Below are positions 26,046 through 31,850 of a stretch of 64,000 nt of DNA, one piece after another (the first letter of the stretch is position 1; each line of letters begins with the position of its first letter). A program made the translations under genes and the position numbers. Under the pieces are notes generated by a model. That model had not been told where the DNA came from. It did not search any database and saw only the letters and a program-made list of their open reading frames with translations. The DNA comes from Maricaulis sp. Its GTDB lineage: Bacteria > Pseudomonadota > Alphaproteobacteria > Caulobacterales > Maricaulaceae. The stretch spans positions 1 to 64,000 of the forward strand of contig NZ_JAEPOL010000014.1 in assembly GCF_017642925.1 (NCBI RefSeq), written 5' to 3'.

Positions 26046-27134
26046 ATGAAACCCCAAGGACCTCTAAAAGGCGTTAAGGTAATTGAGTTTGTCGGACTGG
26101 GTCCGGCCCCTTTCTGCGCCATGATGCTCTCCGATATGGGCGCAGATGTGATCCGCGTCGACCGCAAGGGCGCGCTGGGCGGGGGGCATGCCGACGTTCT
26201 GGGCCGTGGCCGGCGCTCGATTGCGCTGGACCTGAAGGACGAGGCCGAGCTGGCCCTGTGCCGCGATCTCATCGGCAAGGCGGACATCCTGCTGGAAGGC
26301 TATCGCCCCGGCGTGATGGAACGCCTGGGCCTGGGGCCCGATGTGGCCCTGGCTGCCAATCCGGCCCTCGTCTATGGCCGCATGACGGGCTGGGGCCAGT
26401 ACGGACCGCTCGCCCATGCTGCCGGCCATGACATCAATTATGTCGCCCTGTCCGGCGCGCTCGGCGCGATCGGCAGCAAGGAGCAGCCGGCCATCCCGCT
26501 CAACCTGGTCGGCGATTTCGGCGGCGGGGCGATGTATCTCGCCTTTGGCGTGCTGGCCGCGCTGCACCATGCGCGCACCGACGGGGAGGGTCAGGTGGTG
26601 GATGCGGCGATTGTCGACGGTGCCGTCTCGCTGATGGCCTCGCAGCACCAGCTCGCCGCGGTCGGCCTGTGGTCGCCGGAGCGCGGCCGCAACCTGCTCG
26701 ACGGCGCGGCGCATTTCTACACCGTCTATGAATGCGCCGATGGCGGTCATGTGTCGATCGGCCCGCTTGAGCCGGAATTCTACGCCCTCCTGTGCACGAA
26801 ACTGGGTGTCGATGCCCAGGCCCTGCCGGCCGACTGGTCGGGCCGCAACTGGGAGGAGGCGAGGCCGGTCTTTGCCGATCTCTTCCGTCAGAAGACCCGC
26901 GATGAATGGTGCGAGCTGCTGGAAGGCACGGATGTGTGTTTCGCTCCGGTGCTCAATTACGAGGAATCCGCGGCCCATCCGCACATGCGCGAGCGCGGCA
27001 GCTATGCCGAACCGGGCGGGGTGCGCCAGCCGGCCCCGGCGCCGCGCTTCTCCCGCACACCCGGCGCCATCCAGGGACCGGCGCCTGTGCCGGGCGCCGA
27101 CCGTGAGGCGATTTTGGCTGATTGGGGAATATAG
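26046..27134 (+). CDS. CaiB/BaiF CoA-transferase family, alpha-methylacyl-CoA racemase-like
   Basis: A 362-residue family III CoA-transferase fold. The start (LKGVKVIEFVGLGPAPF, then MGADVIRVDR) and the GHDINY, GDFGGG and EPEFY segments fit the alpha-methylacyl-CoA racemase branch, whose catalytic His, Asp and Glu lie in those places. The expected reaction is epimerisation of 2-methylacyl-CoA thioesters before beta-oxidation of branched acids. True CoA transferase activity cannot be excluded. The start ATG is at 26046, 93 nt from the divergent PopA-like gene. It ends 4 nt from the convergent pentapeptide gene. Confidence 0.82.
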   Translation: MKPQGPLKGVKVIEFVGLGPAPFCAMMLSDMGADVIRVDRKGALGGGHADVLGRGRRSIALDLKDEAELALCRDLIGKADILLEGYRPGVMERLGLGPDVALAANPALVYGRMTGWGQYGPLAHAAGHDINYVALSGALGAIGSKEQPAIPLNLVGDFGGGAMYLAFGVLAALHHARTDGEGQVVDAAIVDGAVSLMASQHQLAAVGLWSPERGRNLLDGAAHFYTVYECADGGHVSIGPLEPEFYALLCTKLGVDAQALPADWSGRNWEEARPVFADLFRQKTRDEWCELLEGTDVCFAPVLNYEESAAHPHMRERGSYAEPGGVRQPAPAPRFSRTPGAIQGPAPVPGADREAILADWGI

Positions 27135-27138
27135 CCAG

Positions 27139-28425
27139 CTACCGGTCCAGCAGACGGTCGGTGCCCAGGGCGCCGGAGAGCGCATCCGGCGACAGCTGTG
27201 CACCGGCCATCCGCGCATAGGCGAGATCGGTGCCGGTCAGCCTCGCCTGTTCCAGATTCGCATCGCGCCAGTCGCTGTAGCGGCACTGGGCCTTGTCCAG
27301 CTGCACCGGCAGCACACGCCCGCCGCCCAGGGTGAGCGGCGTCAGCCGGGCGCCCGTCAGATCGGCATGGGTGAGCCAGGCACCGCTGAGATCTGCGCCG
27401 CGCAGATCGGCACCGGCAAGCTTGCAGCCGCGCAGATCGGCCCCGGCCAGGCGGGCGCCCTGCAATTCGCAGCCGCTGAGATCCAGCCCGGCCAGACAGG
27501 CCCGCGGTGCGCGCAGCGCAGTCAGGGCCCGCCCGGCGAGCGAGCCGGCAGGACGCAGGTCGAGGGCGGTGAAATCGACCGGCTGGCCGCTGGCGCTGCC
27601 GCGCACCTGCTGGATATGTTCGGTCAGCCGCGTCTCGGCCTCGCGCGCCGTCAGCACGCCGGCCGGTTCCGGGATGGGGCGGTCGGGATGGGCGCCGGTC
27701 TGCATGTCGCGCGTGACCGCCATGTCGAGCCGGGCGCCCTCCATGTCGCAGCCGCGAAGATCGGCGGCGGTCAGCGACGCGCTGGAAAAATCCGTTCCGG
27801 CGACCAGCGCCAGCGCGAAACGCGCGCCCTCCAGATCGCTGCGGCACAGGCGGGCTCCGGACAGGTTGGCATCCTCGAACCGCGTTTCGCGCGCCGAAAC
27901 GCCGCTCAGCCGGGCCCCGGCCAGCGAGGCCCCGGAAAAGTCCGCATCGTCGAGCGTGCTGGCCTGAACCGTCGCCGGCTTGCCGTCATGGCCGGGCAGG
28001 GGGCGTTCGCGGAAATCCGCGCCGGCACAGCGCGCCGCGACAAGCCGGGCACCTGTGAGATCGCAGCCGCGCAGATCGGCACCCTCGAGCCGGGCGCCGA
28101 CCAGACTGGCCTGACGCATCACGGTCCCGCGAAAGCCGGCACCGCGGCAGTCCGCCCCGTCAAATCGTGCGTCGGAGAGGTCGCTGTCGGAAAAGTCGGC
28201 ATCGCGCAGATCGCAGCCGCTGAAATCCTGGCCGGCCAGGGCCGCGCCGCGGAAGACCGCACGCGCGCCGCCGGCTTCGCCCGTCAGGAAAGCTGTGTGC
28301 AGCCGGCACGAAGTTTCGATGCCGGCCCGGTCCCAGCTGCGGGATGCATGTGCGGTCAACGGTTCATCCGTGCGGCCTGAAACATGGTGTGCAACTGCGA
28401 TACCCAAGCGCCCGCATGCTGGCAA
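27139..28425 (-). CDS. Pentapeptide-repeat protein with adjacent SOS box
   Basis: A roughly 428-residue protein dominated by pentapeptide repeats (runs such as ADLRGCDLTGARL), which fold into a right-handed beta-helix; known members such as Qnr and MfpA mimic DNA and protect gyrase. Two repeat blocks (about 50-250 and 285-415) are joined by a linker. No ATG is available in frame: the longest option is TTG at 28425, with another TTG at 28359, neither with a good ribosome-binding site, so the start is uncertain. The region similar to its paralogue begins near residue 43. A GTTC-N7-GTTC site lies 41 nt upstream of the TTG. No enzymatic domain is seen. Confidence 0.7.
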   Translation of the reverse strand: MPACGRLGIAVAHHVSGRTDEPLTAHASRSWDRAGIETSCRLHTAFLTGEAGGARAVFRGAALAGQDFSGCDLRDADFSDSDLSDARFDGADCRGAGFRGTVMRQASLVGARLEGADLRGCDLTGARLVAARCAGADFRERPLPGHDGKPATVQASTLDDADFSGASLAGARLSGVSARETRFEDANLSGARLCRSDLEGARFALALVAGTDFSSASLTAADLRGCDMEGARLDMAVTRDMQTGAHPDRPIPEPAGVLTAREAETRLTEHIQQVRGSASGQPVDFTALDLRPAGSLAGRALTALRAPRACLAGLDLSGCELQGARLAGADLRGCKLAGADLRGADLSGAWLTHADLTGARLTPLTLGGGRVLPVQLDKAQCRYSDWRDANLEQARLTGTDLAYARMAGAQLSPDALSGALGTDRLLDR

Positions 28426-28465
28426 GCGGCGGTGCCGGAGGCGACGGACATGAATGATGAATAGC

Positions 28466-28480
28466 GTTCATGTCGGGTTC
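28466..28480. promoter_or_regulatory. LexA/SOS box-like direct repeat (GTTC-N7-GTTC)
   Basis: GTTCATGTCGGGTTC reads GTTC, seven bases, GTTC, the published LexA operator form of alphaproteobacteria such as Caulobacter and Rhodobacter. An 8-bp inverted repeat GACATGAA/TTCATGTC (28447-28454 and 28467-28474) overlaps it. It could control the minus-strand pentapeptide gene or the plus-strand RNA candidate, or both. A site like this can occur by chance in a window of this size, so placement is the main support. Confidence 0.45.
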
Positions 28481-28482
28481 AG

Positions 28483-28608
28483 CGGACCTTTGGCAATGTC
28501 CGTCTCGAGACCGGCGAACACCCTGTAGTCCCTCGCTCGTTTTCCGGTCTCGATATCGCTTAGATAGAACCGAAACGCCGGCTGCCCCCAACAGCCGGCG
28601 TTTCTTTG
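28483..28608 (+). ncRNA. Candidate structured small RNA or 5' leader
   Basis: No gene covers this stretch, yet it folds into three stacked hairpins: CGGAC/GTCCG (28483-28487 with 28498-28502), a perfect 9-bp CGAGACCGG/CCGGTCTCG (28506-28514 with 28544-28552) with a C-rich 29-nt loop, and a 13-bp terminator stem (28572-28604) followed by T-rich sequence. The upstream SOS-box-like site could lie in its promoter. Either a free-standing small RNA or an attenuated leader for the gene at 28700 would fit. It resembles no RNA family I recognise. Confidence 0.4.
28572..28608 (+). terminator. Strong Rho-independent terminator
   Basis: GAAACGCCGGCTG (28572-28584) pairs perfectly over 13 bp with CAGCCGGCGTTTC (28592-28604) around a 7-nt loop, followed by TTTG and further T residues. 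There is no coding gene directly upstream on this strand. Confidence 0.85.
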
Positions 28609-28699
28609 TTTCAGCAGGGCAAAACAGGGGTGACAGGTTTTGTCCTGGCGGCCTGTCAGAGTGATCTCCATCGAAGATGAACACGGATGGAGAGCCCCA

Positions 28700-28951
28700 A
28701 TGGCCATCGCGATCAATGCCTATGTCGAAGGTGCAGGCGGCGTTCTGCGCAACATGGTCCCGCACCGTTTCCGCGACGGTTTCTTCCGCATGCAGCGCCC
28801 CGGCGACGATATCGACTGCCTGCACGTGGAAGACCTGCGCTCGGTGTGCCGCTATCTCAACAAGGGCTACCAGCTCGCCATGAGCTCGGCCGACGGCCAC
28901 TCCATGCCCTCTTGGCAGCCGGCAGAAATGGTGCGCATCGCGGTGCGGTGA
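28700..28951 (+). CDS. Small conserved-looking hypothetical protein, 83 aa
   Basis: An 83-residue soluble protein beginning MAIAINAYVEGAGGVLRN and containing RFRDGFFRMQRPGDDIDCLHVEDLRS and a C-terminal MVRIAVR. No family is recognised. The start ATG at 28700 has GGAGAG 6-10 nt upstream. Upstream CTCCAT (28666-28671) can pair with ATGGAG (28687-28692), covering that ribosome-binding site, and an additional 7-bp stem (28631-28637 with 28652-28658) precedes it. The long structured leader suggests regulated translation, and the start site is well placed for it. Confidence 0.55.
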   Translation: MAIAINAYVEGAGGVLRNMVPHRFRDGFFRMQRPGDDIDCLHVEDLRSVCRYLNKGYQLAMSSADGHSMPSWQPAEMVRIAVR

Positions 28952-28993
28952 CCTTCCAACGACCAACCGCCAGTTTCCCCGGATTTATTCTTT

Positions 28994-29064
28994 CCCCGGA
29001 TTCATTCCGGGGCCTGCCAAAGCCTCAAGCGCACACTCAACCAGACCCCGGCACAAGGCCGGGG
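28994..29064. repeat. REP/BIME-like inverted palindrome pair
   Basis: Two palindromes: CCCCGGATTCATTCCGGGG (28994-29012) and CCCCGGCACAAGGCCGGGG (29046-29064). The second is the reverse complement of the unit at 36841-36859. They stand in opposite orientation in the gap between the 83-aa gene and the WYL regulator, like bacterial interspersed mosaic elements. They may also act as convergent terminators. Confidence 0.65.
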
Positions 29065-31145: not shown

Positions 31146-31850
31146 ATGAAAAAGGTATATCCTGACGCCAAGGCGGCCCTGGACGGCCTCGTCTTCGATG
31201 GCATGACGTTGATGGCGGGCGGGTTCGGCCTGTGCGGCATTCCGGAAAACGCCATTGCGGCCCTGCACGCAGCCGGCGTGAAGGATCTCACCGTGATCTC
31301 GAACAATTGCGGGGTCGACGGTTTCGGTCTGGGCATCCTGCTCGACGCCAAGCAGATCAAGAAGATGGTCTCGTCCTATGTCGGCGAGAACAAGGAATTC
31401 GAGCGGCAATTCCTGTCCGGCGAGCTGGAGCTGGAATTCAATCCCCAGGGCACGCTGGCCGAGCGCATCCGCGCCGGCGGTGCGGGCATTCCGGGCTTCT
31501 TCACCAAGACCGGCGTCGGCACGATGATCGCGGAAGGCAAGGAACACCGCGAATTCGACGGCGAGACCTATATCATGGAAACCGGCCTGACCGCCGATGT
31601 CTCCATCGTGAAAGCCTGGAAGGCGGACCCGGAAGGCAATCTCGTCTTCCGCAAGACCGCCCGCAATTTCAACCCGATGATGGCGACGGCCGGCAAGGTG
31701 ACCATCGCCGAGGTCGAGGAAATCGTCGAACTGGGCGAACTCGATCCGGACCAGATCCACACGCCCGGCATTTTCGTGCAGCGCCTGTTCAAGGGCGAAT
31801 TCGAAAAGCGCATCGAACAGCGCACCATCCGCGAAAGGGAGAGCGCATAA
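31146..31850 (+). CDS. scoA: 3-oxoacid CoA-transferase subunit A
   Basis: A 234-residue subunit of succinyl-CoA:3-ketoacid CoA-transferase, which activates acetoacetate with CoA from succinyl-CoA. It has the CoA_trans signature: [37 protein letters not shown], and [18 protein letters not shown]. The glycine-rich N-terminus binds CoA; the catalytic glutamate is in the B subunit. Length matches the family. The ATG at 31146 follows the divergent-free gap after the BrkB-type gene, and its stop overlaps the scoB start by 1 nt. Confidence 0.95.

Follow-up and report, generated by a model that had tools for sequence, protein, structure and literature searches.

Positions 28466-28611 of the window, the 64,000-nucleotide stretch of Maricaulis sp. 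DNA analysed in this study, are likely to constitute the gene for a trans-acting small regulatory RNA activated by FeuP, in which both the control by FeuP and the pairing with mRNAs are predicted. The transcript itself is a prediction, which conservation, covariation and the terminator strongly support, in agreement with the small-RNA interpretation offered by the sequence-only reading. Judged from its sequence, the gene looks like a new family of a known kind, set apart from the small RNAs ChvR and GsrN by their described features. The following parts were assigned to the gene.

28466-28481, forward strand: FeuP-type box GTTCATGTCGGGTTCA, of the form GTTCA-N6-GTTCA (equivalently TTCA-N7-TTCA), which lies 5' of the RNA in relatives, is shared with PepSY-FeuP operons and agrees with a published candidate motif; formerly read as an SOS box
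28494-28499, forward strand: -10-like hexamer CAATGT, predicted, 12 nt 3' of the box, with a TA/CA-type hexamer equally spaced in most relatives
28504-28611, forward strand: putative small RNA of about 105 nt, its 5' end placed from the -10-like hexamer and its 3' end from the terminator
28505-28553, forward strand: stem-loop 1, with a C-rich loop and a 10-bp stem, assigned from the fold and the covarying stem
28528-28536, forward strand: loop word GTCCCTCGC, the presumed pairing seed, identical in 38 of 38 aligned copies
28554-28566, forward strand: small TATC/GATA hairpin, taken from the Maricaulis alignment
28572-28611, forward strand: intrinsic terminator with a 13-bp stem, the loop CCCCCAA and a T-rich tail, with two-sided changes in 7 of the 13 pairs across 19 genomes

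The segment 28481-28611 was predicted to fold at -55.5 kcal/mol, compared with -35.6 +/- 3.5 kcal/mol for shuffled sequences (z -5.6), and none of 200 shuffles was as good. The proposal that the whole intergenic region is structured was therefore correct for this segment; however, the region comprises two units, and the leader alone (28611-28720) gave a z of -1.2, with 30 of 200 shuffles as good. Three successive stems and a T-rich terminator had been proposed for the first unit. The long stem, with the arms TCGAGACCGG (28505-28514) and CCGGTCTCGA (28544-28553) and read here as 10 pairs, and the 13-bp stem were found as written, and the terminator was confirmed by the arms 28572-28584 and 28592-28604 followed by TTTGTTT. 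The first small stem (GGAC/GTCC, approximately 28482-28503), in contrast, overlaps the -10-like hexamer and therefore probably belongs to the promoter rather than to the RNA; judged by eye, it was not retained in the aligned relatives. The TATC/GATA hairpin paired in 94.7% of the cells of the 19-genome Maricaulis alignment and showed no two-sided changes. An unrelated terminator in another genome (locus L334 of G002) carries the loop CGCCCCCAACG, which is the same as that of the RNA's terminator. Since this CCCCCAA-type loop also occurs at a hairpin without the loop word, the terminator loop is not peculiar to the small RNA.

The small RNA was present 5' of the 83-aa gene described below in all 19 Maricaulis genomes searched, and the DNA at 28440-28700 gave a direct sequence match in 16 of them. 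In a plain MAFFT alignment of the 19 Maricaulis sequences, the structure paired in 97.4% of cells, and two-sided changes numbered 23, compared with 4.6 in shuffled and 0-4 in slid controls; of the five measures used, that of further pair types did not exceed the shuffles on this alignment (120/500). A second alignment of 38 copies, which was fitted to a covariance model and consequently leans towards structure, contained 119 two-sided changed cells, compared with 28 shuffled and 5-38 slid, and both helices covaried; 38 of the 40 candidate sources had passed the cut for this alignment, L193 and L195 being left out. Both main stems thus carried compensatory changes, the property on which the sequence-only reading had made its structured RNA depend.

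Furthermore, when 348 genomes of the order were searched with the covariance model R1, 58 gave a match at E <= 0.001. Apart from the primary Maricaulis copies, 36 R1 places were read; the loop word was found in 21 of them and was absent in 15, and the latter were excluded from later alignments. RNA copies were thereby located by the covariance model in 21 further genomes of the order. Four more secondary low-scoring R1 places, together with one that was re-read, all proved to be hairpins without the loop word. A second model, R2, matched 38 of 385 genomes of the class at the same threshold, the window's own genome included. Of the 29 R2 loci examined in other genomes, one contained GTCCCTC at a place unlike this RNA and 28 did not contain the word; R2 therefore gives no support outside the order.

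The homology of the far copies is backed by their shared gene position. Six of the 13 far RNA loci lie between a gene for a CaiB-type CoA-transferase and one for a CoA-transferase subunit A, three more have a subunit A or YihY gene next on the 3' side, and four have none of these neighbours. Homologues of the CaiB-type and subunit A genes flank the locus in the window as well (26046-27134 and 31146-31850), with four genes besides the RNA between them. The gene adjoining the RNA promoter in the window is a divergent pentapeptide-repeat gene (27139-28425). Matches to it were found at 18 of 19 Maricaulis loci; its place beside the RNA is taken in G006 by the CaiB-type gene. In addition, locus L195 carries the small RNA in two tandem copies, in both of which the first half of the box is degenerate.

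No Rfam family reached its gathering score for the region. In the open-access literature searched, no description of this RNA or of a FeuP-controlled small RNA was found. GsrN of Caulobacteraceae resembles the Maricaulis RNA in its conserved C-rich 5' loop, which is thought to pair with G-rich mRNA sites. As described in PMC5869019, however, GsrN has six tandem C, a sigma-T promoter and a position usually near ecfG/phyR, whereas the Maricaulis RNA has the loop GTCCCTCGC and, by eye, no sigma-T promoter; these described features set the two apart. The small RNA ChvR of Caulobacter crescentus is under the control of an envelope-stress two-component system, as is predicted for the Maricaulis RNA, and uses stem-loops for pairing. 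It is described in PMC6237742 as specific to C. crescentus, located 5' of recF/gyrB and driven by ChvI. Judged against that description, the Maricaulis RNA is not a ChvR copy, since it has a FeuP-type box that differs from the reported ChvI motifs, lies at another locus with different neighbours and is more widely distributed.

The box was found 5' of the RNA in 19 of 19 Maricaulis copies and in 19 of 22 other copies, the full box being absent in the remaining three. A -10-like hexamer follows 11-12 nt past the box in 18 of 19 Maricaulis; among the 19 boxed far copies, the distance was 12 nt in 14 and 15 nt in five, as determined with a scorer that tested offsets of 8-17 and favoured 12 where scores were equal. 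A simple sigma-70 scan of 28380-29060 detected no promoter of the TTGACA/TATAAT type, which is expected if activators replace the -35 element.

The sequence-only reading took the GTTC-N7-GTTC form of the box, GTTCATGTCGGGTTC at 28466-28480, for an SOS-like site, in which case the small RNA would be repressed by LexA and induced by DNA damage. The sequence is present and formally matches the SOS consensus GTTCN7GTTC quoted in PMC6237742, and the ChvR of the same source illustrates that small RNAs can be damage-induced, though without an SOS box. However, GTTC-N7-GTTC occurs in the window at chance frequency (2 found, 1.56 expected), and the 18 lexA loci found in the genus (17 of them over the family cut-off) carry GTTCTAYAWGTGTTC-like boxes, one being GTTCTACAAAGGTTC, and never GTTCA. 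The genus lexA boxes are thus of the GTTCTACAAGTGTTC type in 18 of 18 loci, with T rather than A after the first GTTC, and the RNA's GTTCATGTCGGGTTC differs from them. Moreover, 9 of the 19 boxed far copies have ATTCA in one half, by which the GTTC-N7-GTTC match is lost, and the extended box is common to FeuP operons. SOS control was therefore rejected on the lexA boxes of the genus and the chance frequency, and this explanation is considered highly improbable.

The evidence on the box points instead to FeuP. GTTCA-N6-GTTCA occurred at 86 sites in the 19 genus genomes, compared with 13 for the reversed pattern; in 18 genomes of other genera that bear the RNA, the numbers were 80 and 24. Of the 86 genus sites, 19 are the small RNA's own, 55 others were examined and 12 are outside the count. 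The 55 examined boxes lie before a PepSY-response regulator gene pair (17), before genes for PPC-type secreted proteins (17), before another small family (3) or before none of the named gene classes (18); these fractions do not describe a random sample, because 32 of the 55 loci were hand-picked, 20 of them mostly for resemblance to recurring classes. The box stands directly 5' of the PepSY-response regulator genes in 17 of the 19 genus genomes and was not found before this operon in the other two (G016 and G018). Outside the genus, a FeuP operon was present at one of the 30 box loci read among the 80 sites.

The response regulator of this operon is 71% identical to FeuP of Sinorhizobium meliloti, the best of 10 places in the record labelled pSymB. 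In S. meliloti, the gene order is feuN-feuP-feuQ, and the feuN promoter contains ATTCA-N6-ATTCA, a distance of 12 nt and TAATGA. According to a start-site study in S. meliloti (PMC3616915), TTCA-N7-TTCA lies 5' of 12 genes, five of which are FeuP-dependent, and was proposed as the FeuP site; the spacing of the Maricaulis box is that of this published candidate. The link between FeuP and the box rests on the operon position and on this published motif discovery. Moreover, FeuP is required in Sinorhizobium for nodule invasion, the system responds to a host peptide in the periplasm, and hyperactivation of FeuPQ costs viability, as stated in PMC3616915 and PMC12486126.

The two systems thus share the box and its spacing at the feuN promoter as well as a regulator of 71% identity, and they differ in two respects. 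The S. meliloti targets quoted are protein genes (ndvA and feuN), whereas the Maricaulis box precedes an RNA as well. In addition, a PepSY-domain protein (L051:1542-1889) without BLAST similarity to FeuN stands in the feuN position before the FeuP-like gene; it may act on the same kinase as a periplasmic modulator of another type. The Maricaulis kinase gene, of which the 5' fragment alone was compared, is weakly FeuQ-like (23%, E 0.002). The PPC-type secreted-looking proteins at L048, L054, L056 and 14 other loci share the FeuP-type box, many of them have GFTPDPY motifs, and the Pfam PPC domain was confirmed for the one protein tested. These appear to be a FeuP-controlled surface protein family in Maricaulis, as predicted from their boxes.

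The RNA could be real and yet be driven by another regulator of the OmpR family, such as ChvI, UzcR or a similar protein, and PMC6237742 and PMC12864828 provide a precedent in the ChvR of Caulobacter, which is driven by ChvI and UzcR. The reported ChvI motifs (TTGC-N3-GCAA and GCC-N8-GCC) and UzcR motif (CATTAC-N6-TTAA) differ from TTCA-N7-TTCA, however, and the box marks the FeuP operon itself. Control by ChvI and UzcR was set aside on the difference between these published motifs and the RNA's box, and control by any other regulator of this family is regarded as improbable.

Downstream of the terminator lies a gene for a protein of 83 aa, and its own elements bear on whether the RNA might be a long 5' leader of this gene.

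28630-28644, forward strand: GTGACAGGTTTTGTC, an element of regulator type that belongs to the 83-aa gene and recurs, unchanged or in variant form, in 19 Maricaulis
28657-28662, forward strand: -10-like hexamer CAGAGT of the 83-aa gene, predicted from the sequence, 12 nt past GTGACAGGTTTTGTC
28665-28693, forward strand: hairpin spanning the ribosome-binding site used by the 83-aa gene, in which GGAG has an unpaired probability of 0.00
28700-28951, forward strand: open reading frame of the 83-aa gene, found in all 19 Maricaulis among 137 family genomes

The gene had no match in the 118 other family genomes (E <= 0.001), and its product had no Pfam or NCBIfam match. Across the 19 Maricaulis, 40 of the 83 positions are invariant, including C40, C50, H22, H42, H67 and W72; the AlphaFold model of the protein was too poor for use (mean pLDDT 56). 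The motif GTGACANNTTTTGTC occurs exactly in 14 of the 19 genomes and as variants in the other five, 63-88 nt 5' of the start codon, with a search pattern that was widened once the variants were known. Among 407 loci compared, the exact GTGACANNTTTTGTC was found in 57, all of them copies of the place upstream of the 83-aa gene. From its sequence, GTGACAGGTTTTGTC has the appearance of a second site for an activator, and the 83-aa gene, with a promoter element to itself, is predicted to form a separate unit.

In the window, TCTCCATC (28665-28672) and GATGGAGA (28686-28693) pair over the GGAG that precedes the ATG at 28700, and none of 100 shuffles gave an unpaired probability of GGAG as low. In 18 of 19 leaders, pairing of the ribosome-binding core exceeded the mean of the shuffles, G009 showing the opposite. 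RNAalifold, however, found no common helix over the ribosome-binding site in 18 of the 19 leaders, G011 with its insertion being omitted, and the partner of the hairpin shifts register between clades as judged by eye. The earlier proposal that the Shine-Dalgarno sequence is sequestered accordingly holds as a strong prediction for this species and those closest to it, and across the genus as a tendency, but not as a helix shared across the leaders, which an RNA thermometer or sequestering leader would be expected to keep. Sequestration of the ribosome-binding site is plausible in this species on the basis of the predicted folds, and would not be part of the small RNA.

If the 83-aa gene had a long 5' leader that included 28504-28611, as the sequence-only reading had also suggested, transcription would be attenuated at 28572-28611 and translation controlled by the last hairpin. 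The RNA and the gene lie on the same strand with 88 nt from the T-rich tail to the start codon, the predicted folds pair the ribosome-binding site, and the RNA and the 83-aa gene co-occur in 19 of 19 Maricaulis. Nevertheless, a conserved promoter-like element and a -10-like hexamer stand between the terminator and the gene, which makes attenuation unlikely; none of the 13 far RNA loci that were tested has the 83-aa gene closer than 1.5 kb; and a search of the 118 other family genomes did not retrieve it. Attenuation was rejected because of the separate promoter elements and the distribution, and the leader explanation as a whole is judged unlikely.

For the small RNA as a separate gene, targets were sought with the complement of the 9-mer seed next to ATG. 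This search gave 76 matches in the 19 genus genomes. The reversed pattern, which as a control retains Shine-Dalgarno bias, gave 21. Among the genus matches read, GCGAGGGAC beside ATG recurred most at lysC, and the exact seed complement stands 5' of lysC in 11 of 19 genomes. The duplex between the loop and lysC was in the best 5% of shuffles in 4 of 19, and orthologous ribosome-binding sites are not independent. Outside the genus, 26 genomes gave 107 seed-plus-ATG matches, some of which are the opposite strand of the RNA gene itself, and lysC was not among the 70 loci read there. Furthermore, the density of these matches was no higher in the 16 genomes that bear the RNA (69 matches) than in the 10 without an R1 match (38 matches). 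Because of the 4 of 19 duplexes, the non-independent sites, the lack of lysC outside the genus and the lack of enrichment, lysC is a weak candidate and is treated as a mere lead. The loop was also compared with PPC leaders, and 1 of 12 was in the best 5% of shuffles.

That the targets found are weak candidates would also fit an RNA that binds a protein or encodes a small peptide instead of pairing with mRNAs, and the invariance of the loop could reflect a protein site. On the other hand, the C-rich loop is of a type suited to pairing, and the short frame whose ATG lies at 28497 shares bases with the -10-like hexamer and, by eye, is not kept across the alignment. This alternative is considered fairly unlikely, though slightly less so than the leader or another regulator.

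With pairing as the preferred function, the following course of events is proposed. An envelope signal would be received by the sensor kinase, by which FeuP would be activated. FeuP would then bind GTTCA-N6-GTTCA, which would substitute for a -35 element, and recruit RNA polymerase to the -10-like hexamer 12 nt 3' of it, as the architecture of the promoter suggests. The RNA of about 105 nt would end at the 13-bp terminator, and its invariant loop GUCCCUCGC may pair with GCGAGGGAC-like mRNA sites that overlap the Shine-Dalgarno sequence and thereby block translation. In this way, the small RNA would supply the activator FeuP with a repressing arm. The sigma-E small RNAs of enterobacteria are a comparable repressing arm of an envelope-stress activator. 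It is further conceivable, although rather doubtful at present, that the FeuPQ envelope-stress system has in this order an ancient noncoding arm, the small RNA, that FeuP uses this one conserved RNA to repress a set of mRNAs bearing GCGAGGGAC, and that the 83-aa gene is additionally held by a hairpin at its ribosome-binding site that can open.

With a conserved FeuP-box RNA that carries an invariant seed, repression by the FeuP system becomes directly testable. Moreover, the small RNA may serve as a simple reporter for the FeuP system in marine stalked bacteria.
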